Source: a virus
Strand: one strand, 5' to 3'
DNA length: 64,000 bases
IMG/VR virus record: IMGVR_UViG_3300043803_000951
Span: 1 to 64,000 of that record
The first letter of the stretch is position 1. Every line of letters begins with the position of its first letter. The position numbers and the translations under genes are program-made. The notes below the pieces were generated by a model. The model had not been told where the DNA came from and searched no databases. It worked only from the letters and a program-made list of their open reading frames with translations. Positions 34,776 to 49,833 of this stretch are shown here, piece by piece.

Positions 34776-35516
34776 ATGACCCGCATCCTCCTTTCCCTCC
34801 TGCTCGCGCTCACCTGCTACGCGCCGACGCCGCTTTTCTTCGCGCAGAATGGGGCGATGACGGCGGCGTTTAGCCCGGCGGATGTCAGCGGGCTCAAGCT
34901 ATGGCTGGTCGCAGGCGACGTGTCGGGGGCCGATGGCGACACGGTGCAAACTTGGTCAGCGCGCACCCCGACCACGATCAATGCGACGCAATCCACGTTG
35001 GCATCTCGCCCAACGCTTCAACTTTCTGAGATCAAAGGGCAGTCGGCCATCCTGAGCGACGGGGTAAATGACTTCATGACGCTCAGTGCGTCAATCGTGA
35101 CAACGGGAAGCTGGACGGTGATTACCGTGCAGAAGCGACTTTCGTCCGGCGGGCTCGGCGGAAGTCTTGGCAATAACGTCGGCGTTGTTCCACCATTTGC
35201 GGCACTCGAATACGGATCGCTTTCTCGGATGTATATCGCGAGCCGGACAGACCAGAAATACTCCACAATTCCGTCGCACGCCTACCATGTCATCACCTCG
35301 CAGGACAACGCCGGCACGTTGGTCATGCGCGTGGATGGCGTTAATCAATCACTGACTGCGGCGGCAACAACCGGGTCGTCGAACTTTGAGCGAATGTTCT
35401 CCAGATTAGGTGAATATTGGGGCACTTACATCGCTGAAATACTCGCTTGGGAACGGGCGCTGAACTCAACCGAACTCGGCCAGATCGAAACCTACCTGCT
35501 CGGGAAATACTTCTGA
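34776..35516 (+). CDS. Concanavalin A-like lectin-fold protein with signal peptide
   Basis: 246 residues from ATG 34776. Residues 1-24 (MTRILLSLLLALTCYAPTPL) form a signal peptide. The remainder has the LamG/ConA lectin rhythm: LKLWLVAGDVSGADGD, GSWTVITVQKR, AYHVITSQDNAGTLVMRVDG, then YIAEILAWERALNSTELGQI. Such domains bind sugars. It lies next to the tailspike and shares its unusual codon choice, so it may be a receptor-binding accessory of the spike. Confidence 0.75.
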   Translation: MTRILLSLLLALTCYAPTPLFFAQNGAMTAAFSPADVSGLKLWLVAGDVSGADGDTVQTWSARTPTTINATQSTLASRPTLQLSEIKGQSAILSDGVNDFMTLSASIVTTGSWTVITVQKRLSSGGLGGSLGNNVGVVPPFAALEYGSLSRMYIASRTDQKYSTIPSHAYHVITSQDNAGTLVMRVDGVNQSLTAAATTGSSNFERMFSRLGEYWGTYIAEILAWERALNSTELGQIETYLLGKYF

Positions 35517-35887
35517 TGAGAACGCTGCTCACATTTGTCGCGGGCCTCACTGCGCTGGCCCAGACCAGCACCATCGTCATTGTCCCCGCCGCCCTACGCG
35601 ACGCGGCCAACGCGCTGGCTAAGGCTGAGTTCGACCCGGTTGGCGGGGAGTTCACGTTCACCGCCGCGCTGGTCACGCCACCCGCGACCAACGTGACGCA
35701 CTTCTGGTGTGCGGCTCCGTTCTCCGCGACCAATCGCACCAAGCTCAACGTGTTGACCAACACACCACCATTTGCCGGCGTGACGCTGGTGCTAGACTAC
35801 GACCTCACCAACGGCGCCGCGCCCTTCGAGTTCCTCGCCACCAACGGCCTCGCGCCCTACTCGCCGTCACCTTTCCAAACTCCGTAA
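35516..35887 (+). CDS. Small secreted-type protein of the spike module (123 aa)
   Basis: The start overlaps the previous stop (TGATG). The N-terminal MRTLLTFVAGLTALAQT is a signal peptide. The rest is beta-rich with Asn/Thr/Ala repeats (NVTHFWCAAPFSATNRTK), resembling the neighbouring spike in composition. No enzymatic motif. Third consecutive product with a signal peptide. Confidence 0.6.
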   Translation: MRTLLTFVAGLTALAQTSTIVIVPAALRDAANALAKAEFDPVGGEFTFTAALVTPPATNVTHFWCAAPFSATNRTKLNVLTNTPPFAGVTLVLDYDLTNGAAPFEFLATNGLAPYSPSPFQTP

Positions 35888-35933
35888 TTTGCGGATTGCA
35901 ATCCAAGCCAACCCATAAGAATCTACAACCACC

Positions 35934-36131
35934 ATGAAGTCCTGGAAGACAACCATCGCTGGCGTTGGCGCAATCCTCACCGCTGTCGGCCACGCCCTAT
36001 CCGCCCTTTTTGACAACGACCCGTCCACGGTAGTTCAACTGGACGTTACCGTTGGCGCAATCCTTGCCGGTGTTGGCCTCATTGCCGCCCGCGACAATGG
36101 TGTTACAAGTGAACAGGCTGGGGTGAAGTGA
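35934..36131 (+). CDS. Holin-like two-span membrane protein (65 aa)
   Basis: Two hydrophobic segments (TTIAGVGAILTAVGHALSAL and VTVGAILAGVGLIAARD) joined by a short polar loop, both termini charged. This small holin-like type (with the KSWKTT start and a VTSEQAG end) is common in phages next to lysis genes. GTGA coupling to the next ORF supports a lysis cassette. Confidence 0.65.
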   Translation: MKSWKTTIAGVGAILTAVGHALSALFDNDPSTVVQLDVTVGAILAGVGLIAARDNGVTSEQAGVK

Positions 36132-36301
36132 ACTGGATTGGCCAGATTGTAACCGCGCTGCTCCGCTGGCTACAAGGGCTGGCGGAGCGCGACAAAACCA
36201 TTCAAGATGCAAAGACTCCGAAGCCTATTCGTGACGCTTGGGCTGGTTATCTGCGCGACCGGCTGCCTCCCAAAGACGGTGGTGGTGGACAGCCAAAGTG
36301 A
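36128..36301 (+). CDS. Putative inner-spanin-like small protein (57 aa)
   Basis: GTG start at 36128 overlaps the holin-like stop (GTGA). The N-terminal NWIGQIVTALLRWLQGL is amphipathic rather than a clear transmembrane helix. The C-terminus is charged and Gly/Pro-rich. The lipoprotein gene at 36207 begins inside it in another frame, an arrangement typical of spanin pairs. Confidence 0.4.
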   Translation: MNWIGQIVTALLRWLQGLAERDKTIQDAKTPKPIRDAWAGYLRDRLPPKDGGGGQPK

Positions 36302-36422
36302 CGTGGTGAGGATCGGCCCGAACGTGAAGGGATCGGTCTACATCTATCGCGATGGGCAATGGGTCCGCACCGGCAAGGTCCATTTGCCTGAAGGTTGGTA
36401 TGCCGGACCAGGACCCAAATGA
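36207..36422 (+). CDS. Small lipoprotein, outer-spanin candidate (71 aa)
   Basis: The signal sequence ends in a lipobox (VICATGC, Cys about residue 19), so it should be lipidated and placed in the outer membrane. The rest is short and beta-rich (VRIGPNVKGSVYIYRDGQWV). It overlaps the preceding ORF by 95 bases in another frame, as do Rz1-type spanins. Two-step lysis through a Gram-negative envelope would need such a pair. Confidence 0.6.
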   Translation: MQRLRSLFVTLGLVICATGCLPKTVVVDSQSDVVRIGPNVKGSVYIYRDGQWVRTGKVHLPEGWYAGPGPK

Positions 36423-36622
36423 ATCCATCTATCGGAACGCTGTGGCGCTTCAAGGAACTCAACGACGAGACCCCTGAGGAGGTGGCCAAAAACCGCTTCG
36501 TCGTTGTCGCTCACGATGACGGATGGGTTGAATACACCCAATATGACCAATCCTTGCCCACCCGCCGGCCCGTCTCCGAATTCCGCAAGCTGTTCGAGCC
36601 TATCCTACCATCCATTGAATGA
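36419..36622 (+). CDS. Small hypothetical protein (67 aa)
   Basis: ATGA overlap selects ATG 36419. A small beta-rich domain (FVVVAHDDGWVEYTQYD) followed by VSEFRKLFEPIL. Similar small domains occur in phages without known function. Confidence 0.55.
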   Translation: MNPSIGTLWRFKELNDETPEEVAKNRFVVVAHDDGWVEYTQYDQSLPTRRPVSEFRKLFEPILPSIE

Positions 36623-37110
36623 CGAATGACCCGGAATCAGGTGTGGTTGAATCCAACCTCCCGGTCGTAAATCCCAAGATTGGCAAGGGAAAAGCCAAGC
36701 GGAAGGCTATGACCGAGGTGGAGGCCAAGGCTGCCGCCAAGGCGCTTGGGCTTAACCTGATCACCGGTCAATACATCACCAAGGCCCACCAGCTTGGGCA
36801 ATACCTTGAGGAGCAGGGGGCTGTTCAGGTAAGCCGGTCGATGTATCTGCTGACCACCGAGCATGCCCTGCTGGCAGCGGACAAGGTGATGGGGATGATG
36901 GATGAGAAAGGTGACCCAGAGATGACCCTCTCCCTGTTCAAGGCCCACCAAGGCTACCTGTCCATCGTCCAGTCGGCGGCAAATGGTATTGCCAAGGCCA
37001 GTCAGATTGTGGAGCCTACCGATGGAGAGGCTGTCAGGATGCCGCCCCCTCCTGGAGCGGTGGTGCAAATCACTACCACCGCCCCATTGCAGGTAAACCA
37101 ATCCGCATAG
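36619..37110 (+). CDS. Hypothetical protein, small-terminase candidate (163 aa)
   Basis: ATGA overlap. A basic N-terminus (KIGKGKAKRKAMTEVEAKAA) is followed by a helical core (LLTTEHALLAADKVMGMMDE, then LSLFKAHQGYLSIVQSAANG) and a Pro-rich tail. The helical, DNA-binding-like layout is compatible with a small terminase subunit, but the gene is 14 kb from terL and I cannot confirm it. Confidence 0.45.
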   Translation: MTNDPESGVVESNLPVVNPKIGKGKAKRKAMTEVEAKAAAKALGLNLITGQYITKAHQLGQYLEEQGAVQVSRSMYLLTTEHALLAADKVMGMMDEKGDPEMTLSLFKAHQGYLSIVQSAANGIAKASQIVEPTDGEAVRMPPPPGAVVQITTTAPLQVNQSA

Positions 37111-37113
37111 CTT

Positions 37114-37581
37114 ATGCCATACTTTGTCCGTTACGGTATCACCCGTCCGCTGCGTATTCCCACTGGAGACATCGTTCCCTTCGAGTCCATTGGGGACGAC
37201 ACGGGCCTGCTGGAAACCAATAACTCCCTCACCTCCTCCGAGCTTCGGAAGCTGCAAGCCCAATCAAAGATGGGTGTGAAGGAGGTGAGTCCAGAGGAGT
37301 TCGCCGAGCTAAAAAAAAAGGCGTCCGCTGGCGAATTGCGACTGAGATCAGTGAGGAGTCGAAGCGCCGAGCCAGAACTACGGGTGGAGCGATTGGAGCA
37401 GCCCCAAAGAAGTGCTGCGGACGGAAATAACCTGCTGGACCCCACGGTGGGGAACAGCCAGAAGCCCGGGAACGGCCACCCACTGGAAGTGCCGGACGAA
37501 ATCCCATTGCCACCATCCATCAAGGCGGCTACCAAGCCGGTCGCAGCCAAGCCGAAGAAGAAGGCTGCTGCCGAGGAGTAA
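37114..37581 (+). CDS. Hypothetical protein with disordered basic tail (155 aa)
   Basis: N-terminal half ordered (YFVRYGITRPLRIPTGDIVP), C-terminal half Pro/Ala/Lys-rich (TKPVAAKPKKKAAAEE). A run of nine A residues in the middle of the gene would be slippery. Function unknown; possibly a connector or head-interface protein. Confidence 0.5.
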   Translation: MPYFVRYGITRPLRIPTGDIVPFESIGDDTGLLETNNSLTSSELRKLQAQSKMGVKEVSPEEFAELKKKASAGELRLRSVRSRSAEPELRVERLEQPQRSAADGNNLLDPTVGNSQKPGNGHPLEVPDEIPLPPSIKAATKPVAAKPKKKAAAEE

Positions 37582-37584
37582 CCC

Positions 37585-38397
37585 ATGATGACATTCGCCG
37601 AGCTGTTCACGGAAGTATCCAACAACGTGTGGCCTGAGGGCCGCTCGGCACGATTGCTTACCCTCCACAAGACTTGGCTACGGGACTGCCTGATTGACGT
37701 TCAGCGGAAGGTCAAGTGCTTCCAAGTATCCCACATCCACTACGTCGGCCTCCAGTCCACTTACTTCTCCTGCGGGGCTTCTGTGTTTGAGGCTCCCCAG
37801 GGTGGAATCATCAAGGAATTCTGGACCGAGGACAACGAAACCCGCTGCAAGAAGGTCCATGGGTTGCCCCAGACCAAGGACGCCTTCCAATGCACGCTGG
37901 AGAGCAAGGCTAACTGCGCTTGCACGGACATCGAGGACCCCTACCAATACTACGCGGTCGGGGACGACTACTACGCCTACCCGGAACTCCCGCTTGGCCT
38001 GAAGTATCCGGACGAGACGGTGGACAGCGACAGCCGCTCCTGCCTGCGGTCCTTCGCCATGTTCGACGGGTTCATCTGGACCTTCCCGGCACTATCCTCG
38101 CTGGAGACGGGCGTGCTGCGCTGGGACGGAATCAAGAAGACTTGGCAGGACACCGACATCGTTCAGTGGGTGGATGACGAGGGTAGCGTTGACCGCGACC
38201 TCATCAAGGCTTGCGAGCTGTATCTGGAATACAAGAAGGCCCGCAAGGAGAACTGCGACAACGACGACTCCAGAATCTACCTGTCAGAATACAACGCCCA
38301 TATTTCTGACATGATTATCGACTGCAAGCGCAGCCACCGGCTTCCCGACGGACGTTCCTGCTTCACTGCCTGTGGTTCAGGAGGTTCCTGTGGCTGA
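37585..38397 (+). CDS. Head-tail adaptor candidate (270 aa)
   Basis: The N-terminus TFAELFTEVSNNVWPEGRSA then LHKTWLRDCLIDVQRKVKCF has the helical start typical of phage adaptor proteins (a helix, then a W-containing helix ending DVQR). The remainder is beta-rich with many cysteines. Its place between small head genes and the tail genes fits an adaptor. Assignment by position and pattern only. Confidence 0.5.
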   Translation: MMTFAELFTEVSNNVWPEGRSARLLTLHKTWLRDCLIDVQRKVKCFQVSHIHYVGLQSTYFSCGASVFEAPQGGIIKEFWTEDNETRCKKVHGLPQTKDAFQCTLESKANCACTDIEDPYQYYAVGDDYYAYPELPLGLKYPDETVDSDSRSCLRSFAMFDGFIWTFPALSSLETGVLRWDGIKKTWQDTDIVQWVDDEGSVDRDLIKACELYLEYKKARKENCDNDDSRIYLSEYNAHISDMIIDCKRSHRLPDGRSCFTACGSGGSCG

Positions 38398-38644
38398 GTA
38401 TCAGGGCAGGAAGGTGAAGCTCAACACGCCCTTCCGGACTCCCGGAGAGCGGAAGAAGCGAGCTGTCTACGTCCGCAACAAGAAGGGGCGCGTCATCAAG
38501 GTTCGCTTCGGCGACCCCAAGATGGACGACTTCAGGTCCCACAAGGACCCGAAACGCCGCAAGAGCTTCCGGGCTCGCCACAATTGCAGCGAGAAGAAGG
38601 ACAAGACCAAGCCCGGATACTGGGCCTGTTCTTACGGGTGGTAG
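38390..38644 (+). CDS. Basic conserved phage protein (84 aa)
   Basis: Start at GTG 38390, five bases after AGGAGG. KVRFGDPKMDDFRSHKDPKR, then KSFRARHNCSEKKDKTKPGY and YWACSYGW form a conserved phage pattern of unknown function that is usually located near structural or adaptor genes. Rich in Lys and Arg. Confidence 0.65.
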   Translation: MAEYQGRKVKLNTPFRTPGERKKRAVYVRNKKGRVIKVRFGDPKMDDFRSHKDPKRRKSFRARHNCSEKKDKTKPGYWACSYGW

Positions 38645-38645
38645 G

Positions 38646-39299
38646 CTACACCATCGCCTCATGGCCCGGGTCCAACATGCTCATGGCATTGTCCATGACC
38701 CGGTGCTGGATGTCTGACTCGTTCTCATACTGGACGAACAGCCTTGGCTGAACGCAGTAGGCTTTCGCTGTTGGCAGGTGGTTCGAGATCAGGCAGTCAA
38801 TCGGACCAACCCCGTGGATGTGTGGGCAAATCTTCCTGGCGAACTGATGGGTCACCGCGTAGCTGGAAGTGGTCATCATCGTATTCACCCGGATGATTGA
38901 GGGTGATAGGCGTCCCTGAGGCTTGGAGGCGTATCCTCCTCCGAGATACAATGCGTCCCAATCCTCGGGAATCTCAGGCAGAATCTTCTCCCATTGCTCC
39001 CTGAACGGAAGCCGGTCAACGGCATGGTCGGCATAGCGTCCCGGCTTCACCTCGTCCGCGTCATCCTCAAAAATAAGCGTCCGCTTCCAGCCGTGGTGGG
39101 AGATCAGCTCAAGGACGCCACGATGGGAGGCGGTGCAACCGTAGTTCCCGCTGAATGACCCGTCCGGCATGGAGCCTTCGTGGGCCTCGAACCGGTCAGC
39201 CGTAATCCCGGTTGACCTACACATCTTCAGGAAATGATACCACCGGTCAGTTCTGGAGGCGCGGTTGATGCAGATGATCTTGTCGAAGTAGTCGTTCAT
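38646..39299 (-). CDS. Glycosyltransferase family 25-like protein
   Basis: 217 residues. ICINRASRTDRWYHF, RFEAHEGSMPDGSFSGNYGC and TLIFEDDADEVK (EDD motif near 75-78) match family 25, which adds sugars to lipopolysaccharide. SHRG and YAVTHQFA further support it. Coupled by ATGA to the FkbM methyltransferase. Catalysis uses a nucleotide sugar and a divalent metal at EDD. Confidence 0.85.
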   Translation of the reverse strand: MNDYFDKIICINRASRTDRWYHFLKMCRSTGITADRFEAHEGSMPDGSFSGNYGCTASHRGVLELISHHGWKRTLIFEDDADEVKPGRYADHAVDRLPFREQWEKILPEIPEDWDALYLGGGYASKPQGRLSPSIIRVNTMMTTSSYAVTHQFARKICPHIHGVGPIDCLISNHLPTAKAYCVQPRLFVQYENESDIQHRVMDNAMSMLDPGHEAMV

Positions 39300-39844
39300 T
39301 TAAGTCGGTAGTTCTCCCAGCAGAAAGGGGCGTCGTAGGTGAGTTCGTGGGTTTCCAGCAGGCGGGTCCGGATGGCCTCCCATCGTTCCTGGAAGTTACT
39401 GACTACCCGGTGGAACTGGACTTGGATGTTCCTGACCATGGTGACCTTCCCGCTGTCCAGCAGGGCTTCGAGAATCTCGTATTCAGCTCCCTCGCAGTTG
39501 AGCTTCATAAGGTCAACGGGCTCATCCACGACCTCGTTCACATCAACGATTTCCACCTCCACCTCCTTGTCTGACTCTGCCCACATACCCGTGGAATCCC
39601 CCTTGACGCCAATAATTACAGTCCCATTTCTTCCGCCGATGGCGAATGGGAACAGCTCGATAGAGGGGTGGAGCTTATCCTTGATGGCCTCATGGAACAC
39701 CGGCTCAAAGCACCAAACCCTACATCCGTAGCGGCGGTGGATTTCGTTGGCGAAGCGGCCCTCAAACCCGCCCGCGTCAAATACGAGGCTGGATGGGTTG
39801 AGCGGGTATTCGTAGCGAATCTCCTCGGTAAACGGCTTCATCAT
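39296..39844 (-). CDS. FkbM-family methyltransferase
   Basis: 182 residues. SLVFDAGGFEGRFANEIHR (20-37) is the SAM-binding loop. NCEGAEYEILEALL (about 115-128) is the FkbM signature. These enzymes O-methylate sugars or lipids. Together with the fucosyltransferase-like neighbour it would methylate a transferred sugar. ATGA couplings on both sides show a single leftward unit. Confidence 0.88.
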   Translation of the reverse strand: MMKPFTEEIRYEYPLNPSSLVFDAGGFEGRFANEIHRRYGCRVWCFEPVFHEAIKDKLHPSIELFPFAIGGRNGTVIIGVKGDSTGMWAESDKEVEVEIVDVNEVVDEPVDLMKLNCEGAEYEILEALLDSGKVTMVRNIQVQFHRVVSNFQERWEAIRTRLLETHELTYDAPFCWENYRLK

Positions 39845-40521
39845 TCTTCCTTCAGGTGTAGTTCAGTGTTGTCGTCAAGATTGCAGAATCGCGGGTGGTT
39901 CCCCTTCACGAACGGAACATCGTGTTCCTTGCCACCCTCAAGCCCGTCGATAATGGGGCTGTAAACCTCCCCATCCCCAAGGGTGGCGGCCCACCAGGAG
40001 AAGGTGGAGTTGCCGCGGAATAGCACGTCCGCATGGACCATCGCAAGAAAGTCCGGCACGAACGAAAGGCTGTCCGGAAACCCGCAGCTATCACTCTTGA
40101 TGTCGTCGCTGACCATCTCGTAGTCGCGGAATCCATGGCGGGGAATCTCAGTGGCGTAGGACCTCATTGACACCACCGGGTAGCCGTAGCCGAGGTAGTC
40201 CCCGGCCCGGCGGTGGGCGAGGACCTTCTTCTGGGATTGAACCCTGCGTCTGACCATCTTCACCATGCTGTTGGCTGGCCGGAGCCACTTCTTCAGTTGG
40301 CTGCGGGTGTAGATGAGGTCCTTCTGGCGCTGCCGGTATTCCCCGATCTCCAAGTCATCCTGATGGCGAGGGCGTGTGGTGGGAATCCCGAAGACGATGT
40401 TGCCTTCCCAAGGGGGTGTAATCAGCTCCTTTCCCTCAATCTCCGAGAGGGCCTTGGCGTAGGCCCATTGGAACAGCTTGTTACCGAACCGTCCGATCAG
40501 CGGTGTATAGATGCCTGCCAT
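39841..40521 (-). CDS. GT11-like fucosyltransferase
   Basis: 226 residues. GRFGNKLFQWAYAKALS (10-26) parallels GGLGNQ-MFQYA of alpha-1,2-fucosyltransferases, HRRAGDYL (103-110) parallels HIRRGDY, and RGNSTFSWWAA near 171-181 parallels the STFSWWAAWL segment. Family 11 transfers fucose from GDP-fucose. The donor cannot be checked here. First gene of the leftward half of the cluster. Confidence 0.85.
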   Translation of the reverse strand: MAGIYTPLIGRFGNKLFQWAYAKALSEIEGKELITPPWEGNIVFGIPTTRPRHQDDLEIGEYRQRQKDLIYTRSQLKKWLRPANSMVKMVRRRVQSQKKVLAHRRAGDYLGYGYPVVSMRSYATEIPRHGFRDYEMVSDDIKSDSCGFPDSLSFVPDFLAMVHADVLFRGNSTFSWWAATLGDGEVYSPIIDGLEGGKEHDVPFVKGNHPRFCNLDDNTELHLKEE

Positions 40522-40582
40522 TGACTGGCGCGACTATTGCCGATGGGAAGCCTTAATCAACCACTAAATCGAACATTGCCTA

Positions 40583-40611
40583 TTGACTGAGAGCCGCAGG
40601 CTCCCATCCTC
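40583..40611 (+). promoter_or_regulatory. TTGACT-N17-ATCC block before the two-domain glycosyltransferase
   Basis: TTGACT at 40583, 17 bases containing GAGCC-GCA-GGCTC, then ATCCTC at 40606 and ATG at 40621. No Shine-Dalgarno. The same layout as at 13581, 44555 and 46175. Divergent genes start on either side of this intergenic stretch. Confidence 0.4.
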
Positions 40612-40620
40612 ACCCCGCCG

Positions 40621-42270
40621 ATGTTGAAGATTCACCGCCAAGCTCCCGTAGGCCCACCTGACTCCATGTGGAAGCCATTGGCTGATGAGCGGGCCGCCAA
40701 GATTGCGCTGCTGGAGAAGCGGTTAATGGAGGAGGAAGAATCGGCCCCGCCGCCTTGGCCGACTGAGCGGACCATCACCGTCATCCTCACCGTCCACGGG
40801 GACAAGCGGTTGCCAATGGCCAAGGAAGCCTACCGGTCCATATTGGCTGCTGGATTCAAGGCTGACCAGATTCGCATCTGCCTAACCCACCCTGCTGGTG
40901 TTGGATACGGGATGACGCTCTCCGCATTCCGGGATTGTGCCTGCGTTGACCAACTAGGCCCCATCGACAACAACTCCGCATGGCTCCAATCCTGTGAGCG
41001 GGCCGAGTCCTCCCACATCATCATCCTCCACGACGATGACCTGATGAAGCCCGGCCTCGCGGACAAACTGCGGGAGCGGGATGATTGGGAGGTGGCTTAC
41101 TGGGATGCGGACCTGATTGGGGATGTCCAATCGTCCGTCCGATACTTCAAGTGCAAGCCGGGAGTCTACAACGGGCAGCTAGTCCGGGAGGTCCAGTCCG
41201 AAAATGAGCTGACCATCTCAACGATTCAGGGATGCTTTCCGCGCCACATAGCCATCGAAGCCTTCTCCCGTTTCCAGGGCGAATTCAACCAGCCTGAGTT
41301 CCAGTTCCGGCCCGGGATGTGGGTTGGGAATGACTTCCTGATCTGGTGGCTGGCCGGCGGCTCAAGCAAGGTCTGGATTGTTGGGGAGTCATTCAGTTGC
41401 TGCCGTGGTCACACAGGCTCAACAACCGCCATCGGGCTCCAGGATGGAAGGATTGCCCCGATGTATGGTGAGATGAGGCGCCGGCTTGGGGCGATCCCCA
41501 AGAGGCGGGTCATTTTCGGCCACGCCTTCGGGGAGGTGGGAAAGTTCTGCCGCCACTTTGAATCCTTCAAGACCCGCCATCAGGTGGTGTTCTTGTGCCA
41601 CTCGGCAAGCCAAAGAATCCCATCCAACTCCAGCCGCGTAATCATCCCGGACTCAGGGCTGAAGATTCCACGGAACCCGGCCGTGTCCGTCTCCAACCAC
41701 GCCTCGAAGTTCATCTTCCCGCAAGCCTGCAAGGCTGCCTTGGATGGGTTCGATGAGATGATGTGGGTGGAGACGGACTGCCAGTTCTCGGGGGACAACT
41801 GGGACGATGTGTTGCGCCATGAGCACTCAGGCGCCGGGGATGTGGTTTGCTCCGGGACCCCGGTTATGTGGTCCACCTTCTACTCCAAGACCAAGACAGC
41901 CGCGGCAGCGATTGAATACGCCAGCAACTACCACAGGCTCACTGGCAGGGTTGCCGCCATCGAGGGCACCCTGAATGACAGTCCGTGTGTTTTCCCCAAT
42001 GGAGCCTTGTCCTGGTATTCCCGGGAGCTGATGGATGAGTGCTTTGTGGCCCGGATGAAATCGGGGCTGGAGCAGTTCGCTTCCGGTGACCAGTTCGACC
42101 TTGAGTGCGGGAGATACATCTGGAGCCGGTTTGGCGAGAACTCCTTCAAGAAGGTTGGGATTACCCCCTCATCCTACTCCGGCTGCGGGGACCACTGGTA
42201 TAGCCTCAATGACCGCTTGCAAATGCTTTCCAGCGGTAAGATTGTCGCCGTCCATCAGGTCAAGTCATGA
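40621..42270 (+). CDS. Two-domain glycosyltransferase (549 aa)
   Basis: N-terminal domain: TITVILTVHGDKRLPMAKEA, SSHIIILHDDDLMKPGLAD (HDDD motif near 139). C-terminal domain: RRVIFGHAFGEVGKFCRHFE and DEMMWVETDCQFSGDNWDD give a second GT-A-like fold (about 300-549). Two active sites could add two sugars in sequence. ATGA to the phosphoesterase. Function in glycan assembly is inferred from neighbours. Confidence 0.75.
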   Translation: MLKIHRQAPVGPPDSMWKPLADERAAKIALLEKRLMEEEESAPPPWPTERTITVILTVHGDKRLPMAKEAYRSILAAGFKADQIRICLTHPAGVGYGMTLSAFRDCACVDQLGPIDNNSAWLQSCERAESSHIIILHDDDLMKPGLADKLRERDDWEVAYWDADLIGDVQSSVRYFKCKPGVYNGQLVREVQSENELTISTIQGCFPRHIAIEAFSRFQGEFNQPEFQFRPGMWVGNDFLIWWLAGGSSKVWIVGESFSCCRGHTGSTTAIGLQDGRIAPMYGEMRRRLGAIPKRRVIFGHAFGEVGKFCRHFESFKTRHQVVFLCHSASQRIPSNSSRVIIPDSGLKIPRNPAVSVSNHASKFIFPQACKAALDGFDEMMWVETDCQFSGDNWDDVLRHEHSGAGDVVCSGTPVMWSTFYSKTKTAAAAIEYASNYHRLTGRVAAIEGTLNDSPCVFPNGALSWYSRELMDECFVARMKSGLEQFASGDQFDLECGRYIWSRFGENSFKKVGITPSSYSGCGDHWYSLNDRLQMLSSGKIVAVHQVKS

Positions 42271-43121
42271 ACAGAGTCCCCATTGAAACAACGGCCCCGA
42301 CGCCCTACTTCAAGCGTCGCCTCTACGCCTTCACGTCCGACCATGGGGAAGCCGGGGCGACCCAGACTTCCGTGGCCAACCTGATGAAGGGGTGGGATGC
42401 GGACCTCTACCTGTTTGGCGGGGACAACGCCTACCCATCCGGCTCAGTAGCCCAAACCGCAGCAGCTTGGGCGGTGTGGGCTTCGGAGATCGCGAGCGAG
42501 AAAGTCTACGCAGCCCTCGGCAACCACGACCTCGACACGGATACGTGGCAGCCCCACGTCAACTTCTTCACCTACTTCCCTGGGAATCGCCGCTACTACT
42601 CCGTCCGGGACGGGAATGTGGAGTTCTTCATCCTGAACAGCGGCTACAATACAGCCGGGACGATGGTGGAGCCGGACGGCAACACTTCCACCAGCAACCA
42701 GAAGCAGTGGCTGGAAGCGGCCGTTGAAGCCTCGGATGCCCATTGGAAGATCGCCATCTTCCACCACCCCGCCTACACCTCCGGGGTTTCCTACGCTCCC
42801 GGGAAGACGGCGCTGCGGTGGGATTGGAGGAACCTAGGGATTGACCTCGTTCTGTCCGGCCACTCCCACAACTACGAGCGCCTAATCATCGACGGGATGA
42901 CGTATGTAGTGGCGGGGATTGGGGCAAAGTCCCTGGTCGCATTCGCAGCCACTCCGCTCACCGGAAGTCAAGTCCGGGACTACACCCACTACGGGGCGGT
43001 CAAGATCATCGACAACGGGGACGAACTGGACGTTGAGGCTTGGTCCACTGACTCCGTTCTTTTGGACAACTTCCAGCTATCGAAGGCTCCGTCAGACAAA
43101 ACACCAGACTTGGTTGAATGA
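42267..43121 (+). CDS. Calcineurin-like metallophosphoesterase (284 aa)
   Basis: Full set of motifs: SDHGEAG (24-30), GGDNAYP (51-57), LGNHDLD (84-90), IFHHPAY near 163 and SGHSHNYER near 197. The last motif and the overall length resemble purple-acid-phosphatase-like or cAMP-type members. It hydrolyses phosphate esters, perhaps on the glycan or a nucleotide sugar. Coupled to both neighbours by ATGA. No signal peptide, so it acts in the cytoplasm. Confidence 0.88.
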   Translation: MNRVPIETTAPTPYFKRRLYAFTSDHGEAGATQTSVANLMKGWDADLYLFGGDNAYPSGSVAQTAAAWAVWASEIASEKVYAALGNHDLDTDTWQPHVNFFTYFPGNRRYYSVRDGNVEFFILNSGYNTAGTMVEPDGNTSTSNQKQWLEAAVEASDAHWKIAIFHHPAYTSGVSYAPGKTALRWDWRNLGIDLVLSGHSHNYERLIIDGMTYVVAGIGAKSLVAFAATPLTGSQVRDYTHYGAVKIIDNGDELDVEAWSTDSVLLDNFQLSKAPSDKTPDLVE

Positions 43122-43531
43122 AACCAATCTCCATCTACACCCTCAACCCAAAGCTGAAGGCGCTTGGGTTCCATGAGATCAAACTGGCTGACTCCAGCTA
43201 CGTCGCACCGTCCTATGGCTGGCTGAAAGAGTTCTCCGACTACCTGTTCCGTGGGTGCCCGCCATACTACCGGGAAACCTTCGACTGCGAGAACATTGCC
43301 CGCTGGGCGATGGCGGAAGCGGACAAGGCGCTGGTGGACTCGGGAACCCGTGATGCTGGCCACACATTCGGGGAGGCTACCGGAGTGATACAGGTGAATG
43401 AAAAGTTTGACAACCATACCCTCAACTTCTGCTACTGTGACGACGATGAAATCTACGTGGTCGATGCCAAAGCGGGCCTGCTGGCTCCTATTGCTGGCTA
43501 CAACGCTGCTTGGTCTTCCTGCCGGCTGTAA
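43118..43531 (+). CDS. MOA-related Cys/His domain protein (137 aa)
   Basis: YRETFDCENIARWAMAEADK places a cysteine before a helix. HTLNFCYCDDDEIYVVDAKAG supplies a His and a following acidic strand. This Cys...His...Asp layout resembles the C-terminal papain-like domain of the lectin MOA, found in several phage proteins. It may be a cysteine hydrolase. It is not a convincing endolysin. Confidence 0.5.
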   Translation: MKPISIYTLNPKLKALGFHEIKLADSSYVAPSYGWLKEFSDYLFRGCPPYYRETFDCENIARWAMAEADKALVDSGTRDAGHTFGEATGVIQVNEKFDNHTLNFCYCDDDEIYVVDAKAGLLAPIAGYNAAWSSCRL

Positions 43532-43569
43532 GGCCACCGGGGACCGTCCGCCAACAATGCGCTGACTGC

Positions 43570-44544
43570 ATGAGCAACCTCCAGCTTCCACCCCCAATCT
43601 CCATCCAGGCCCATGAGCAGGGATTCGAGGCTGGAATCTTCAAGGCCAACGGAGGCCCGAACACCTACCTGTTCAACAACGCCTTCTTCCTGCGGGGTAA
43701 GAAGCTGTGGATGGCCGCCCGGCAGACCCACATGATCGGCGGGAGGTGGAGTGAGTGCATGAGTGACCTGATGGCCTACCCGGTCAATGGGGACATGACG
43801 CTGGGAAGCCCGGAGTCCATCTACTACCCACGGCGTTCCCCATCCGAGAACATCGAGGACCCGCGGGTGATTCCATATGGGGACGGGTATCTGGTCAGCC
43901 TGTGTAGCTGGGAGCGGACACCGCGCCCTGAGAACGTGCAAGCCCAGCAGGTCTGCTGCTACATGGACGACCAGCTCCGCATTGAGAGTGTATGGACCCC
44001 GGAATATGGCAAGAACTCCGGTAGATTCGGTGGGAACATCGGCTTCGAGAAGAACTGGATTTGGTGGTTGGACGCGGAAGGCCAGCTCTGCTTCACCTAC
44101 ATGACCCACCCCCACCACGTCGCCATCACGGACGGGCGGAAGGTCATCGCCTCCACCTCGGACGACTACGACCATCGCTGGCTGTTTGGCCATATCCGCG
44201 GTGGGACTCCTCCCATCCAGATGGGGGACGAGTATGTGGTGGCCTTCCATTCCTCGCTGCCGTGGAAGTCGGTCCGCGGTCTGGGCCTGAGGATGAAATA
44301 CTTCTTGAGCTTCCTCAGCTTCGAGCCGACCTACCCCTACAAGGTGAAGCGGATTTGCCGGCGCCCAATCCTGAGCGGGACGGACCAGGACCCGGTAATC
44401 CGGGAAAGCCCCGCAGTGGTGTTCCCGTGTGGGTTGGTGAAGATTGGGGACGATGCGCTGGTGAGCCTTGGCAGCAACGACATCTCCATGGGGTGGGCGA
44501 GGATTCCTCTCAAGCTGATCGACTCATGGATGGAGCCGGTGTGA
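43570..44544 (+). CDS. GH130-like glycoside phosphorylase/hydrolase
   Basis: 324 residues from ATG 43570. SENIEDPRVIPYGDGYLVSL, then GGTPPIQMGDEYVVAFHSSL are the two signature segments of family 130 (catalytic Asp in EDPR, then the GGTPP-strand). The fold is a five-bladed propeller that cleaves beta-mannosides, often by phosphorolysis. A phage gene of this family is unusual and suggests processing of a mannose-containing glycan. It follows the MOA-like gene after a short gap. Confidence 0.75.
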   Translation: MSNLQLPPPISIQAHEQGFEAGIFKANGGPNTYLFNNAFFLRGKKLWMAARQTHMIGGRWSECMSDLMAYPVNGDMTLGSPESIYYPRRSPSENIEDPRVIPYGDGYLVSLCSWERTPRPENVQAQQVCCYMDDQLRIESVWTPEYGKNSGRFGGNIGFEKNWIWWLDAEGQLCFTYMTHPHHVAITDGRKVIASTSDDYDHRWLFGHIRGGTPPIQMGDEYVVAFHSSLPWKSVRGLGLRMKYFLSFLSFEPTYPYKVKRICRRPILSGTDQDPVIRESPAVVFPCGLVKIGDDALVSLGSNDISMGWARIPLKLIDSWMEPV

Positions 44545-44554
44545 GAGTTGTCTC

Positions 44555-44583
44555 TTGACGGCCAGTCCGTTCTGGATAACCGT
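44555..44583 (+). promoter_or_regulatory. TTGACG-N17-AACC block
   Basis: TTGACG at 44555, 17 bases, AACCGT at 44578, ATG at 44599 with no Shine-Dalgarno. Sits in one of the few true gaps in this cluster. Confidence 0.4.
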
Positions 44584-44598
44584 AGCTCCGCCTTCTAA

Positions 44599-45558
44599 AT
44601 GAGCAACCACCTGACAATCGCCTGGATCACCAACCGGCTGGATGCCCGCCCGGAATACTTCCTCCACAGCCTCGCCAACGAACTGAATCGAACCCAGTTC
44701 AACCGGGACAACCTCACCATCCTGCTGGTGGACTTCCACCTCCACTATGATGGGGACCTGACCCGAAAGACCCTCTACTCGCTGCTCATCCAAGAGGCCG
44801 GGTTACAAGGCTTGGTCCGCCACGTCCCCACCGCCCCGTCTGTCTGGCAAGGCCCGCACAGGCTGACCAAGGAGGACCACTTCGACGCCGCAGCCGTCCG
44901 CAACGGGGCCGTGTGTTATGCCAAGGATGGCTACTTCGCCTGCGTGGACGATCTGAGCGTGATGCTGCCCGGCTGGCTGGATGGGGTGATTGAGGCCCAG
45001 AAGACCCACTACATCGCCTGCGGGGCCTACAAGAAGGTCAAGAAGCTGGTGGTCGAACGGGGAGTCGTGAAGTCCTTCGAGGAGAATCCGCCGGGGAATG
45101 ACCATCGCCTCAACTACCCGACGATGTGGAAGTGGTGTAGTGGGCAGTGGATGTATGGGTGTAGCTTCGCGGCTCCTGTGGAAGCTATACTCAAGGTGAA
45201 TGGTTGGCCGGCGTGGGATTGTGGGGGTATGTCCTACGAGGACGCCTTGCTCGGGGTAACAATGCAGCGCAATGGATACCTGTTCAGATACGACCCAAGG
45301 ATGATGACCTACGAATCCGACGAGTTGCATGGGCAAGGCAAACCGTTCCGGAGAGACGACCCCGGCGTAAGTCCGAATGACAAATCCCACGCACTTCTTG
45401 ATAGGTGTAAAGGTTCTGTGCGCTTCCACAACGAGTTTGGGGAAGGTATCACATCGCTGGCCGACTTGCGGCAGCGAATCCTTGCTGGTCACCCATTCCC
45501 AATCCCCACCACCCCAACCCATGAGTGGTTCACCGGGAAGGCCCTGCCAGACCTATGA
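44599..45558 (+). CDS. Glycosyltransferase, family 2/27-like (319 aa)
   Basis: Nucleotide-sugar domain: ITNRLDARPEYFLHSLANEL, YFACVDDLSVMLPGWLDG (VDD near 119-121). Acceptor end: VNGWPAWDCGGMSYEDALLG, a galactosyltransferase-type NGxP...DGW/EDxD segment. It would extend the glycan. ATGA coupling to the next GT25 gene. Confidence 0.75.
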   Translation: MSNHLTIAWITNRLDARPEYFLHSLANELNRTQFNRDNLTILLVDFHLHYDGDLTRKTLYSLLIQEAGLQGLVRHVPTAPSVWQGPHRLTKEDHFDAAAVRNGAVCYAKDGYFACVDDLSVMLPGWLDGVIEAQKTHYIACGAYKKVKKLVVERGVVKSFEENPPGNDHRLNYPTMWKWCSGQWMYGCSFAAPVEAILKVNGWPAWDCGGMSYEDALLGVTMQRNGYLFRYDPRMMTYESDELHGQGKPFRRDDPGVSPNDKSHALLDRCKGSVRFHNEFGEGITSLADLRQRILAGHPFPIPTTPTHEWFTGKALPDL

Positions 45559-46166
45559 ACCCACCCACCTGCGTCATCACCCTGAAATCCCAGCCGGACC
45601 GCTGGACGCGCTGCTTCACCCACCTGAACGAGCGTGGCTACTGGGCGCAACCGTGGGCTGGGATTGACGCCGATAAGATGGGGCTGGTTACGACCCACAC
45701 CCATCGCCTTCCCGACGGCCGGGACTACACTCCACCTCCCTACCACGTAGGCTGCTGCCTGTCCCATTGGCTACTCTGGCGCGATCTGTGGCGGAACTGG
45801 GGAGGCTCCTCCAACCCGGTTGCGGTGATGGAGGATGACGTGGAGCTGCGGGAAGACTGGGAGCCCATGCTGTATGCGGCCCTGAAGGACCTCCCGGACG
45901 ACTGGGACATCCTGTTTGCCGGGAGCTGCAATGCAAAGTTCAACGGGGCAACCCACTACAAGGGCAACCTGTGGCAAGCCAAGGAGCCGCTATGCACCCA
46001 CTTCTACCTCGTCCGCCCGAAAGCCCTGCCTGTCCTCATCGAATCCTGCGAACGCATCTACACCAAGATTGACTGGGCGATTGTGGAGCAAGCCCTGCCG
46101 AAGCTGAATTCGTTCGTGGTCCTGCCAAGGATTGCCGGCCAACACGGGACTGAGCTGATCGAATGA
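45555..46166 (+). CDS. Glycosyltransferase family 25-like protein (203 aa)
   Basis: VITLKSQPDRWTRCFTHLNE, then GIDADKMGLV, GCCLSHWLLWRDL and VAVMEDDVEL (EDD) follow the family 25 order. Overlaps the upstream stop. It is related in type to the leftward GT25 at 38646, so the cluster has two such enzymes, one in each direction. Ends at TGA before a TTGACA block. Confidence 0.85.
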   Translation: MNPPTCVITLKSQPDRWTRCFTHLNERGYWAQPWAGIDADKMGLVTTHTHRLPDGRDYTPPPYHVGCCLSHWLLWRDLWRNWGGSSNPVAVMEDDVELREDWEPMLYAALKDLPDDWDILFAGSCNAKFNGATHYKGNLWQAKEPLCTHFYLVRPKALPVLIESCERIYTKIDWAIVEQALPKLNSFVVLPRIAGQHGTELIE

Positions 46167-46174
46167 GTTGCCCG

Positions 46175-46203
46175 TTGACAGCCGGCAACGGTTGACCAAC
46201 CTA
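46175..46203 (+). promoter_or_regulatory. TTGACA-N17-AACC block before methyltransferase
   Basis: TTGACA at 46175, 17 bases, AACCTA at 46198, ATG at 46211. No Shine-Dalgarno. If a promoter, the transcript would begin at or next to the ATG. Confidence 0.4.
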
Positions 46204-46210
46204 TCCCAGA

Positions 46211-46858
46211 ATGAAGTTGCTTCCGCTCCCTGACGACCTGAAGGCCCATGTCCTTGCCCATTTCAATACCGTGACGGACGGGTGGTGCTGGGAAGACAAG
46301 GCCATCAAGCTGGCTGAGGTGGTGTGGACGCTGAAGCCGAAGCTGACCGTGGAGGTGGGGGTGTTTGGCGGGAAGTCCTTCATCCCCATGGCAGCCGTGG
46401 TGGCCCATCTGGACCAGAACACGGGGAACCATAGCGCGGTGGGGATTGATGCGTGGGCGGCTGCGGCTGCGCTGGAGAACAACCTCGGCACGGCGCATGA
46501 GCAATTCTGGAAAGATCAAGCCATGTTGGATGCCGTCCACGCCCGGGCAATCGGCCGGTGCAATGCGCTGGCCTGCCGGAACGTGAAGCTGGTCAAGGCT
46601 TGGTCCGCCAATGCGATCAACGATTTTGGGTCGGGTGAAATACAGGTCCTTAGTCTCGATAGCAATCATTCGGAAGAAACGTCGTCCCGAGACGTTATGA
46701 CGTGGTGGGTGAAGCTGGCAAAGGGCGGAGTATTCATCTTCGACGACACCGCTTGGGAATCCCAGCAGAAGGCCGTCAACTGGCTCAAGGAGCGCGGGGA
46801 AGTCATCTGGGAATACAACCAGAACGGGAACTCGACGATGTTATTCCTTAAAAGCTAA
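46211..46858 (+). CDS. Class I SAM-dependent methyltransferase (215 aa)
   Basis: LTVEVGVFGGKSFIPMAAVV (about 47-65) is the glycine-rich SAM loop. LDSNHSEETSSRDVMTWW and VFIFDDTAW supply later strands. It resembles Methyltransf_24-type enzymes acting on sugars. Last gene of the cluster and followed by a hairpin terminator. Substrate inferred from neighbours. Confidence 0.8.
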   Translation: MKLLPLPDDLKAHVLAHFNTVTDGWCWEDKAIKLAEVVWTLKPKLTVEVGVFGGKSFIPMAAVVAHLDQNTGNHSAVGIDAWAAAAALENNLGTAHEQFWKDQAMLDAVHARAIGRCNALACRNVKLVKAWSANAINDFGSGEIQVLSLDSNHSEETSSRDVMTWWVKLAKGGVFIFDDTAWESQQKAVNWLKERGEVIWEYNQNGNSTMLFLKS

Positions 46859-46926
46859 TTTGGTTCGGAACGTGGCCGGGCAGGCTTTCGTGGAATTAAC
46901 TGCCATCGGTCTGGAAATTCCGTTTA

Positions 46927-46975
46927 CGGGGCGCTTCTGGCTTATGCTTTCGCCGGTTAGCGCCCCGACCTTTTT
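46927..46975 (+). terminator. Terminator after the sugar cluster
   Basis: CGGGGCGC (46927-46934) pairs with GCGCCCCG (46960-46967) around a 25-base loop, followed by ACC and TTTTT. An unusually long loop but a strong GC stem and T-run. Confidence 0.75.
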
Positions 46976-47014
46976 CGGCTTGCTCCTTTACCGATAACGA
47001 CTGACTGTTCCCCC

Positions 47015-47704
47015 ATGGGCAGTCCAGTTGTATCAGGAGACATTGAGAGTCTCAATCTCTCGAACTCGTTGTGCGCGGAGGAACTCAAGCATCTGCGCCT
47101 TCGCGACCAGATGAAGGAGTTCCTTGACTGGTTCATCGACGAGACGGGCGACGTGAGCGATGCGTTCCTTGAGAACATTGCCGACAAGGTGACTCCAATC
47201 GGGACGATCCTGCTGTGGAGTTCAGCTACCCTCCCGTCCCCAAAATACCTGCTGTGCAACGGTCAGGCCATCAGCCGGACAACCTACGCTTCCCTGTTCG
47301 CCCGGATTGGCGTCATTTTCGGGGCCGGTGACAGCTCCACGACCTTCAACCTACCGAACCTGACCGACCGGGTTCCGGTGGGGATTGGCCAGCAATACAC
47401 GATGGGGCAGCAGGTTGGCTCAAAGGAGGTGGCCCTGACCTCGGCGATGTTGCCGCTCCATTCCCACACCATTCCAGTAAGGCGGGCGGATGCGGTTGAG
47501 TTTTTCGGAAGCTCGATGGCTAAACTGGAGGTTTTTCAAGTTTACAACAGTGGAACAACAACCCCAGTAGTGGACGGAGCTATATCTGGAAATAACCCAG
47601 AATCAGCTACGGTTACCACCGCCGAATCAGGCTCTGCAACCCCCACGAACGTAAACCTCCTCCAGCCTTCGCTGGGTGTGAACTTCATCATCAAGGTCCT
47701 GTAA
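47015..47704 (+). CDS. Phage tail collar-domain protein
   Basis: 229 residues. GTILLWSSATLPSPKYLLCN (62-81), then SRTTYASLFARIG and FNLPNLTDRVPVGIG form the phage collar (short tail-fibre) domain. The C-terminus is beta-rich and ends in VNFIIKVL, the usual trimeric end. It likely forms a fibre or tail-tip attachment. ATG 47015 without a Shine-Dalgarno. The last base overlaps the next ATG. Confidence 0.88.
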   Translation: MGSPVVSGDIESLNLSNSLCAEELKHLRLRDQMKEFLDWFIDETGDVSDAFLENIADKVTPIGTILLWSSATLPSPKYLLCNGQAISRTTYASLFARIGVIFGAGDSSTTFNLPNLTDRVPVGIGQQYTMGQQVGSKEVALTSAMLPLHSHTIPVRRADAVEFFGSSMAKLEVFQVYNSGTTTPVVDGAISGNNPESATVTTAESGSATPTNVNLLQPSLGVNFIIKVL

Positions 47705-49833
47705 TGGCTGCCCCCTGCAAGGACATCCTGCTGGAACCATTGGCCGGAGGGCTGGACCTAAAGAGCCAGTCCGGGGCCGTGGCGTTCGGCAACTTCCGCC
47801 TCATCCTCAACATGGATGGGTCGCGGCAAGAAAGTTGGTGCAGGCTCAATGGCTGGCGGCGTTACGGGTGGGACCAAGAATGCGTCAACAACCTCGACCT
47901 CCACGACCAGATGGTGGATGGGTCGGGGTTCTACTCGACTCCCTACGACTACACCACGCCCGAGCGTCGGGTAACCATCGGTCAAGTTTTCAGTCAATGG
48001 AATGGGTCCTCTGGCTACGGCCAGCTACTCGATGTGGTGAAGACCGTCCCCGAGTCCACCGACGAGTATTGCGCTCCGGAGACTTACTACCTCGGCGGGC
48101 AATGCCGGGAAACCCCGACGCTGCTGGCCTCGGTAGCCTCCACCTCCGGCAAGCGTAGGCTGGTGGCTGGAACCAAGTCCCGGCTGTATGCCAACGACGA
48201 CAGCGGCGGGAACTGGACCATCATCGCGGACGGGCTGGGTGGGATACCCCTGTCGGGAGACTGCAACTGTGCGGACCGGCGGACCACGCTGGCCCAGCTT
48301 GGGAACACCGTCCTGTTCACCAACGGGATTGACCCGGTGATGGCTTGGGAGATCGGGGAGACAGCCACGGGCTGCTACTACTGGTCGGCCGACTTCATCA
48401 CCGAGCTTCAGGCGATTGGTATTTCCTATGCCCAGACGATTGCCGTCTGGAACGGGTTCGTGTTTGTGGGGAACGTGATGGATTCCGGAGCCATCCGGTC
48501 CAGCCGGCTCTACTGGAGCGACTACAACGACCCCTACTCTTGGATTCCCTCGGAGGATTCCCTGAGCGGGTTCCATGATTTTGGCCTTGGCGAGCAGATA
48601 CGCTCCATGAAGCCCATCGGCGGGAGGCTCCGTATCTACACGGACAAGGCCATCTACGACTTGACCCCATCCAGCGACGCCACACTGGTCCACAACATCC
48701 AGGAAATCTACCGGGGCACCTCGATCCCCAAGTTTCCCCATGCGATTGTGGATACCGGGACAGCCCATGTGTGGCTGGGGGACGATGACATCTGGGGGAT
48801 GAGCGAATACGACCGCTCCCCGCAGCGGGTGGAATGGATGAGGCTGGCCGGGGCTGCCATCTACAAGGGCATCTCCTCGGAGTATCTGGCTGACCTACCA
48901 ACGGGAATCCTTGGCAACTACGGCCCCATCAACAAGAGCCTGTGTTCGCTGGCTTCGGGCTGGTGGAACCCGATTGACCAGTCCATCTGGTTCTCCTGGC
49001 CTTCAGCTTCTTCTACGTGCCCGAACCTGACGCTGGTGCTCTGGGCTTCAACCCAGAAGGCCACCATCATCGACCACGGGATCACCGCCGCCACTACCCA
49101 TCGTCCCGACACATCCCCATCGCTGCGGGATTGGTTGGGGACTAATGGGCTGTGTGACCCCGAAACCATCCGGGAAGCCAAGGAGGGGGTGCCTTGCCCG
49201 ATTGAGTTTGTTGAAGGGAACTTTGACGGCCTCTTTAACGCTAACGAGTCCGCTTCTGACGGGGTGAGCGGGAGTTCCTTCTTCGGCCAGTTCTGCAACC
49301 TTACGGTGGCTGATCTGTGCGAGTCCTGTGATGCCGGGGAGCGGTGGTTGCTGGTGAGTGCCAGCGACAAGGGCATCAAGGAGTTCACGGACCAGACATA
49401 TTCCCGGGAGCAAATCACCTCGGTTGATGAGGTTTCCTTCCCGGCTGTCGGGACTGCCACCTACGAGCAGGGGGGCTACGCCTCCTTGATGCAGTCGGAT
49501 GCCACCAACTTCCGCACGAATACGGAGAAGATGGTGCAAGCCATTGCCGTGGAGTTCACTGCCGAGGACCAGACCACCGCCGGCCAGCTCAACTGCGCCA
49601 TCGGGACAGGCTCCCAGCCGAAGTGTTTGGACTGGGAAACATCGGACCCGGTTGATCTCGACTGCCTTGATGTAGATTCGACGGCGGGGACAAGGCCGAT
49701 GGAGATTCCACGGTTCGCCTTCTGGTCCTCCGGGGTCCATGTGGCCTTCCGGTTGTGGACCACCGGCTCCGGGAATTCTTTTTGTATCAACAGCCTGACC
49801 ATGAAGGGGCAGGGCATCAGCAAGTGCTGGTAG
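47704..49833 (+). CDS. Large tail protein, propeller-like (nozzle/stabilisation candidate)
   Basis: 709 residues, beta-rich with recurring short blades (TLLASVASTSGKRRLVAGTK, LFTNGIDPVMAWEI, GGRLRIYTDKAIYDLTPSS), suggesting a beta-propeller of the kind found in podovirus tail nozzle or head-completion proteins. Many cysteines. It sits between the collar fibre and the internal proteins. The role is inferred from location and shape. Confidence 0.6.
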   Translation: MAAPCKDILLEPLAGGLDLKSQSGAVAFGNFRLILNMDGSRQESWCRLNGWRRYGWDQECVNNLDLHDQMVDGSGFYSTPYDYTTPERRVTIGQVFSQWNGSSGYGQLLDVVKTVPESTDEYCAPETYYLGGQCRETPTLLASVASTSGKRRLVAGTKSRLYANDDSGGNWTIIADGLGGIPLSGDCNCADRRTTLAQLGNTVLFTNGIDPVMAWEIGETATGCYYWSADFITELQAIGISYAQTIAVWNGFVFVGNVMDSGAIRSSRLYWSDYNDPYSWIPSEDSLSGFHDFGLGEQIRSMKPIGGRLRIYTDKAIYDLTPSSDATLVHNIQEIYRGTSIPKFPHAIVDTGTAHVWLGDDDIWGMSEYDRSPQRVEWMRLAGAAIYKGISSEYLADLPTGILGNYGPINKSLCSLASGWWNPIDQSIWFSWPSASSTCPNLTLVLWASTQKATIIDHGITAATTHRPDTSPSLRDWLGTNGLCDPETIREAKEGVPCPIEFVEGNFDGLFNANESASDGVSGSSFFGQFCNLTVADLCESCDAGERWLLVSASDKGIKEFTDQTYSREQITSVDEVSFPAVGTATYEQGGYASLMQSDATNFRTNTEKMVQAIAVEFTAEDQTTAGQLNCAIGTGSQPKCLDWETSDPVDLDCLDVDSTAGTRPMEIPRFAFWSSGVHVAFRLWTTGSGNSFCINSLTMKGQGISKCW

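Follow-up and report, generated by a model that had tools for sequence, protein, structure and literature searches.

Glycosylation of virion proteins by phage-encoded enzymes has been described for the mycobacteriophages Che8, Corndog and Myrna (Freeman et al. 2023, as cited in PMC12363180 and PMC12619734); according to the citing passages, phage glycosyltransferases modify capsid and tail-tube proteins there, single enzymes (Che8 gp110, Corndog gp38) being named. The gtrABC serotype-conversion cassettes of temperate phages are another case of phage glycosylation by several genes, glycosyltransferases among them. Here we describe an island of ten genes, A to J, at positions 38646-46858 of a 64 000-nt stretch of DNA (the window) from the IMG/VR record IMGVR_UViG_3300043803_000951, which has 68 472 bases in full. 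The island is situated within the late virion genes of a tailed uncultivated phage. We consider it probable that these genes serve the phage to assemble a short glycan, likely to contain β-mannose, on its own virion proteins and to cap it by methylation. Compared by description, the mycobacteriophage systems appear to be the closest precedent, with a different enzyme set: single glycosyltransferases in contrast to up to ten genes here, including an enzyme with the GH130/GT108 fold. The linkage of phage glycosyltransferases to structural genes, a genomic mark of virion-glycosylation systems, was found here as well. Unlike the gtrABC cassettes, the island has many more cytoplasmic enzymes; neither a match to the GtrA flippase nor membrane glycosyltransferases, or any other membrane protein, were observed in it.

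The genes of the island are as follows.

38646-39299, minus strand: A, GT25-type glycosyltransferase, 217 amino acids (aa); Pfam PF01755, 2.5e-5; EDD motif
39296-39844, minus strand: B, FkbM-type methyltransferase, 182 aa; Pfam PF05050, 5.3e-8; orthologues 39-50%
39841-40521, minus strand: C, GT11-like (α-1,2-fucosyltransferase-like) glycosyltransferase, 226 aa; PHROG 2644, 8.8e-5; GT11 motifs; orthologues 35-43%
40522-40620, no strand: divergent intergenic gap, 99 bp
40621-42270, plus strand: D, large protein, 549 aa; two GT-A-like acidic motifs, HDDD and ETDC
42267-43121, plus strand: E, purple-acid-phosphatase-like metallophosphoesterase, 284 aa; Pfam Metallophos, 3e-18; motifs GGDNAY, GNHD, HHPAY and GHSH
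43118-43531, plus strand: F, no recognised family, 137 aa; no Pfam, PHROG or PDB match; not in relative L005
43570-44544 (reading frame opens at 43510), plus strand: G, propeller enzyme of the GH130/GT108 fold, 324 aa; Pfam PF04041, 5.8e-8; EDPR motif
44599-45558, plus strand: H, GT-A (GT2/GT27-like) protein, 319 aa; VDDLS motif; weak Pfam GT2, 0.16
45525-46166, plus strand: I, GT25-type glycosyltransferase, 213 aa; Pfam PF01755, 1e-7; EDD motif
46211-46858, plus strand: J, sugar O-methyltransferase-type class I methyltransferase (Methyltransf_24/CmcI/TylF group), 215 aa; Pfam Methyltransf_24 9e-15, RMNT_CmcI 9.9e-7, TylF 2.6e-6

The ten reading frames, three leftward (A-C) and seven rightward (D-J) from the 99-base gap, were confirmed at the coordinates given in a preliminary description of this DNA. 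Overlaps of 4 bases, typical of coupled operons, are present at four junctions (C/B, B/A, D/E and E/F), and the island thus has the look of two divergent, translationally coupled operons. In a promoter scan of the divergent gap no sigma-70-like promoter was recognised. Membrane-helix-type hydrophobic stretches were seen in none of the ten proteins (the highest 19-residue mean was 1.47), so all of them look soluble.

Most of the enzyme labels in the preliminary description held. Pfam supported those of E and J and, with scores above the curated cut-offs, those of A and I (24.7 and 32.5 bits against 24 for GT25, the EDD motif being present in both), B (33.6 bits against 22.7 for FkbM) and G (32.5 bits against 26 for GH130). 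C scored below the cut-off of the Pfam GT11 model PF01531 (12.9 bits against 23.9; E 0.067); it carries the motifs HRRAGDY, GRFGNKLFQ and STFSWW, the first of which has counterparts HMRRGDY in contig L013 and HQRRDDY in L020, and we describe C as GT11-like by motifs rather than file it as a GT11 member. For D and H the labels stand on motifs. D has no significant family in Pfam or PHROGs; H has no significant family and no PHROG match. The acidic GT-A-like motifs of both are conserved in homologues, and in an alignment of H from the window with seven viral homologues VDD.S is invariant and MTYES-type motifs are conserved. Searches for solved-structure relatives of H and J gave none. The label left without support was 'MOA-like' for F: the Agglutinin_C model gave no match to it, and gave none in any control genome either. 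An orthologue of D is found in L005 (42%), and more distant ones (27-33%) in the T4-like contigs L017, L062 and L070. In five T4-like contigs (these three, L018 and L065) a larger D-type protein (~820-1080 aa), G and GT25 are located between clamp-loader and endolysin-type genes, a setting of the cassette different from that in head operons.

G was characterized as a member of the GH130/GT108 β-mannoside phosphorylase/transferase fold group on the basis of its profile score and a predicted structure. The AlphaFold model (predicted local distance difference test, pLDDT, 80; predicted template modelling score 0.82) is a five-bladed β-propeller, and in Foldseek searches its best matches were all GH130 (Teth514_1788 at 1.1e-10); the Leishmania enzyme MPT-2, of GT108, matched at 2.6e-9. 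With Teth514_1788, Teth514_1789, Lin0857 and Uhgb_MS the protein shares the fold (Foldseek ~1e-10, template modelling score ~0.65) and the EDPR motif (DPR in Uhgb_MS); it differs from them in being only ~16% identical and in having EKNW, RGGTPP and HSS in place of the usual motifs. Its six best sequence-profile hits represent four enzymes, Teth514_1788, the Thermoanaerobacter β-1,2-mannobiose phosphorylase, Uhgb_MS and Lin0857, all of which act on or make β-1,2-mannosides. The EDPR motif is invariant in seven aligned sequences of G and aligns with EDPR of Teth514_1788, which holds the catalytic Asp; the catalytic residue of GH130 enzymes is Asp142 of BT3780 and its equivalents (PMC4599007). 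In this family phosphorylases are marked by three phosphate-binding basic residues and hydrolases by a pair of glutamates (PMC4599007). In the alignment of G with Teth514_1788 the His of HSS lines up with the His of YHA, the invariant Arg of RGGT is two columns off the Arg of ESAR, and the position of MLHRR lacks a conserved basic residue. The invariant Lys of EKNW aligns with the Lys of FPEK; its match to the specificity residue Lys199 of BT3780 is putative.

The GH130 enzymes named above sit in catabolic loci, whereas G is found in phage head operons together with glycosyltransferases. The GT108 β-1,2-mannosyltransferase-phosphorylases of Leishmania (MPT/MTP) have the same propeller fold as G, a fold able both to synthesise, from GDP-mannose, and to break down (PMC8950772); they differ in serving mannogen turnover in a eukaryote and in being only 11-15% identical to G. 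The linkage of G to glycosyltransferases and methyltransferases favours, in our view, action of G in the synthetic direction. No PHROG matched G, and in a literature search limited to open-licence papers no phage cassette of this kind was reported to contain a GH130-type enzyme.

The preliminary description had proposed a search for the same gene order in metagenomic phages, and modules of the island were indeed found across IMG/VR. In the relative L005/L004 the order D-E-G-H-I-FkbM-J lies between orthologues of both flanks of the island, and in relative L003, a contig that begins inside H, H-I-FkbM-J precedes the collar gene. L005 has neither the leftward trio nor F; the FkbM gene of L005 and L003 belongs to the rightward operon and, at 29% identity, is no close relative of B. 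Such conservation of the gene cluster in relatives excludes chance clustering. Identities to the relatives were 70% for E (in L005), 61% for H, 59% for J, 56% for G, 44% for I and 42% for D, as compared with 65% for the left flank, 65% for the 709-aa virion protein and 51% for the collar protein. Since most island genes have diverged about as fast as the virion genes on either side (D and I faster), the island is old and vertically kept. We also considered an origin from DNA of foreign composition and rejected it, as the island does not differ in GC content (57-61%) from the remainder of the window.

Beyond close relatives, a scan with a single sequence of G returned nothing, while an alignment-based query produced 92 viral contigs. 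A similar query with H gave nine viral contigs, and one with A gave 118, among which orthologue-like sequences (at least 42% identical) were only the first seven listed. We observed G in 49 non-redundant IMG/VR contig groups, of which 30 have J and 20 have GT25; H is present in 26, always accompanied by J. The grouping collapses near-identical contigs only, so the 49 groups are not 49 independent events. In 34 of the 49 groups G was linked to glycosyltransferases or sugar-type methyltransferases. The order C-B-A was kept in five groups (L101, L102, L103/L029, L106 and L107/L013) and in L020, a contig of an Opitutaceae metagenome-assembled genome (MAG); L104 and L105 have C and A without B. In viral contigs the orthologues of A, 42-68% identical, have C and, in most cases, B as neighbours. 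Every contig with C-B-A also has G, H or J, and a natural negative control is provided by 28 contigs with distant GT25s only (no more than 30% identity), none of which has C, G, H or J. We therefore see the two divergent operons as halves of one system.

Relatives were also sought among 50 697 phage records. No match was observed there for the DNA of the island, for D, G and H, for the 709-aa virion protein or for a second G and a second H; the query with A matched only three records, of large uncultured phages (28%). The families of G and H were thus not found in these records, while the cassette recurs across uncultivated phages. The preliminary description had also named an observation that would speak against phage ownership, namely repeated finding of the cluster in host chromosomes. 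This was not seen: a pattern scan with H, not an exhaustive one, in 84 980 genomes of bacteria and archaea revealed two loci only, a 6.4-kb MAG contig consisting essentially of the cassette alone and a chromosome-like contig of Acidobacteria. These data argue against a common host-chromosome passenger.

The position of the cassette is informative as to its target. G was called as a gene in 43 groups. In 30 of these the locus contains a recognised head or tail gene, at a distance of no more than 3 kb in 23 of them, and the nearest such gene was always in the orientation of G. In 16 of the 43, G is located between TerL/portal and scaffold/major capsid protein genes. The order in the main lineage is TerL, a small protein, a ~750-aa protein, the cassette genes H, J and G, a small protein, a ~390-aa proline-rich protein and a ~410-aa protein. 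For the last of these AlphaFold predicts the HK97 major-capsid fold (pLDDT 75.5), and the top match of the model in Foldseek was the capsid of phage N4 (E 2e-12, template modelling score 0.50). In a second lineage G-J-GT25-H immediately precedes a gene assigned to the portal (phrog_7376, 4.9e-8), and in a third G directly follows a major head protein (phrog_617). In L101 the genes J-C-B-A are followed by a collar-like tail gene; in L071 G is flanked by homologues of the window's portal-like protein and of p575 from its head module. The similarity of G correlates with that of the capsid protein (r = 0.69) and of the portal (r = 0.61; permutation p ≤ 0.0005). As a separate observation, the ~410-aa proteins (L064:16367-17605 and 15 relatives, family A8), with an HK97 fold nearest to that of the N4 capsid, have no tblastn match in the 50 697 phage records, and apparently mark a large lineage of uncultivated phages.

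The preliminary description had proposed one multi-enzyme pathway directed at the virion, and this proposal is now better supported, with modules recurring beside capsid, portal and terminase genes. In the whole record we found no match to GtrA, to the thymidylate-synthase family, or to epimerases and NTP-transferases (two families of sugar-nucleotide biosynthesis). Head-operon linkage, soluble enzymes and the lack of these four kinds of genes together favour a virion target. The island would then act as a phage-owned glycan-assembly cassette, expressed late and using nucleotide sugars of the host. The soluble cytoplasmic glycosyltransferases A, C, D, H and I would assemble a short oligosaccharide on at least one virion protein, with G contributing, probably synthetically, from mannose-1-phosphate or GDP-mannose. 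Capping of the oligosaccharide would fall to the methyltransferases B and J, through O-methylation; E may remove phosphate and in this way drive a phosphorylase-type step, or it may trim a phospho-sugar. The resulting glycan coat could shield the particle or tune its attachment. We infer the direction of G, the sugar, the acceptor and the benefit to the phage from the enzyme set and its surroundings.

Several observations weigh against a glycan on the virion. The cassette may lie near virion genes simply because it is expressed late or because insertions are tolerated there. For the main lineage, the ~750-aa protein is a presumed portal and the ~390-aa protein a presumed scaffold by size, order and composition; PHROG and PDB profiles did not identify the former, and hhalign comparison with the window's own head proteins was negative. 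The similarities of H and J do not follow that of the portal (r = -0.11 and 0.11), so these two genes appear to be exchanged; set beside the correlation of G with capsid and portal, this suggests that G is tied to the head, with other parts of the cassette being swapped. A chromosome-like Acidobacteria contig has H and J together with SDF and VTT genes, and no recognised phage genes.

Furthermore, 15 of the 49 groups with G have no H, J or GT25 within ~10 kb. Such absence of the other modules would fit a G that degrades a mannoside, whether by phosphorolysis or by hydrolysis, in the role of an auxiliary metabolic gene or as an aid resembling a depolymerase, in a loose set of passenger genes, and the GH130 enzymes characterized in PMC4599007 are in fact phosphorylases or hydrolases that break mannosides. 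We regard this explanation as improbable in view of the 34 groups with linked glycosyltransferases and sugar-type methyltransferases; the Foldseek matches of G also include the synthesising enzymes Uhgb_MS and Leishmania MPT-2.

The T4-like contigs L017, L062, L065 and L070 are a further difficulty, having D, G and GT25 in the vicinity of genes for DNA polymerase and the clamp loader and not near head genes. As an anti-restriction-like gene is found there as well, one could propose that the cassette glycosylates modified bases of phage DNA as a protection against restriction; phage glycosyltransferases can hypermodify DNA, as noted in a passage of PMC12619734 citing such work. The record, however, has no gene of the thymidylate-synthase family, to which base-hydroxymethylating enzymes belong, and many G loci are in head operons rather than in replication modules, so that modification of DNA appears very unlikely.

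Finally, the three leftward genes of the window point against the direction of late transcription. Lysogenic-conversion genes often run in this direction, and the trio must have its own promoter. It is above all for these three genes that one may think of a cassette that, acting in the cytoplasm, alters a host surface glycan (lipopolysaccharide core, O-antigen or capsule), in lysogenic conversion or superinfection exclusion. The phage encodes an integrase; GT25 is named in Pfam for lipopolysaccharide biosynthesis, and GT11 enzymes decorate surface glycans. Still, the cassette has no GtrA or membrane-anchored protein, in many phages it is co-directional with head operons and often within them, and the scan of bacterial genomes with H gave just the two loci. 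We judge alteration of the host surface unlikely, with an appreciable chance left to it.

The glycan on the phage's own virion proteins remains the explanation we prefer. A broader proposition is possible, at somewhat less than an even chance: that uncultivated phages widely possess a modular system of virion glycosylation, found in no cultured phage, whose core includes a β-mannosyl enzyme of the GH130/GT108 fold co-inherited with the capsid gene, and which makes a methyl-capped capsid coat partly by phosphorylase-type chemistry. If so, sugar-coated particles would be a common feature of uncultivated phages in the environment and would be made by a larger toolkit than is known, and G would represent a new branch of GH130/GT108 in a synthetic role. 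Enzymes of this type form β-mannosidic bonds, which are chemically difficult to make. The G-H-J and C-B-A signatures ease the finding of candidate phages.

The genes that border the island are listed below.

37585-38397, plus strand: left-flank late gene, with a 65% orthologue at the equivalent place in L005; no family match
38372-38644, plus strand: left-flank small basic phage protein; phrog_7595, 1.8e-16; convergent with A, the two stop codons adjoining
47015-47704, plus strand: right-flank tail collar protein; Pfam PF07484 (Collar), 9.6e-18
47704-49833, plus strand: right-flank virion structural protein; phrog_3287, 7.9e-16

The preliminary description had placed the island between head-adaptor and collar genes. 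The collar gene was identified by Pfam; the gene at 37585-38397 is a possible head-tail adaptor, a name that derives from gene order only, as the protein has no family match.

A second IMG/VR record, ~100% identical, crosses the ends of the first (window position 1 and record base 68472) with 28 extra bases; the phage genome is therefore essentially complete, ~68.5 kb long and circularly permuted or circular. The second record, L002 (G001), lacks exactly positions 35293-48242, a stretch that contains the island and extends beyond it by 3.3 kb on the left and 1.4 kb on the right; this gap may be an assembly break due to population variation in the island, or it may be there by chance. An HNH_3 gene (1.9e-15) was found at 22677-23189 on the minus strand, just upstream of the terminase gene, and in L003 an HNH-like insert (2874-3401), judged from sequence only, adjoins the cassette.

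Besides the integrase, the terminase and the collar protein, the record encodes DnaB and, downstream of the collar gene, a protein of 3438 aa (52050-62366, plus strand) that closes the late module. In size it resembles giant internal virion proteins, the N4 virion RNA polymerase for example; it has no Pfam or PDB relatives, and a PDB sequence search aimed at that polymerase gave no match. The sole match of the window's TerL in the 50 697 phage records was to a Leptospira phage (27%). The protein encoded at 10515-11378 on the minus strand belongs to phrog_7247 (1e-41), and its phage relatives, mostly from Caulobacter and Brevundimonas with a few from Erythrobacter and Synechococcus, give a weak hint of an alphaproteobacterial or cyanobacterial host.

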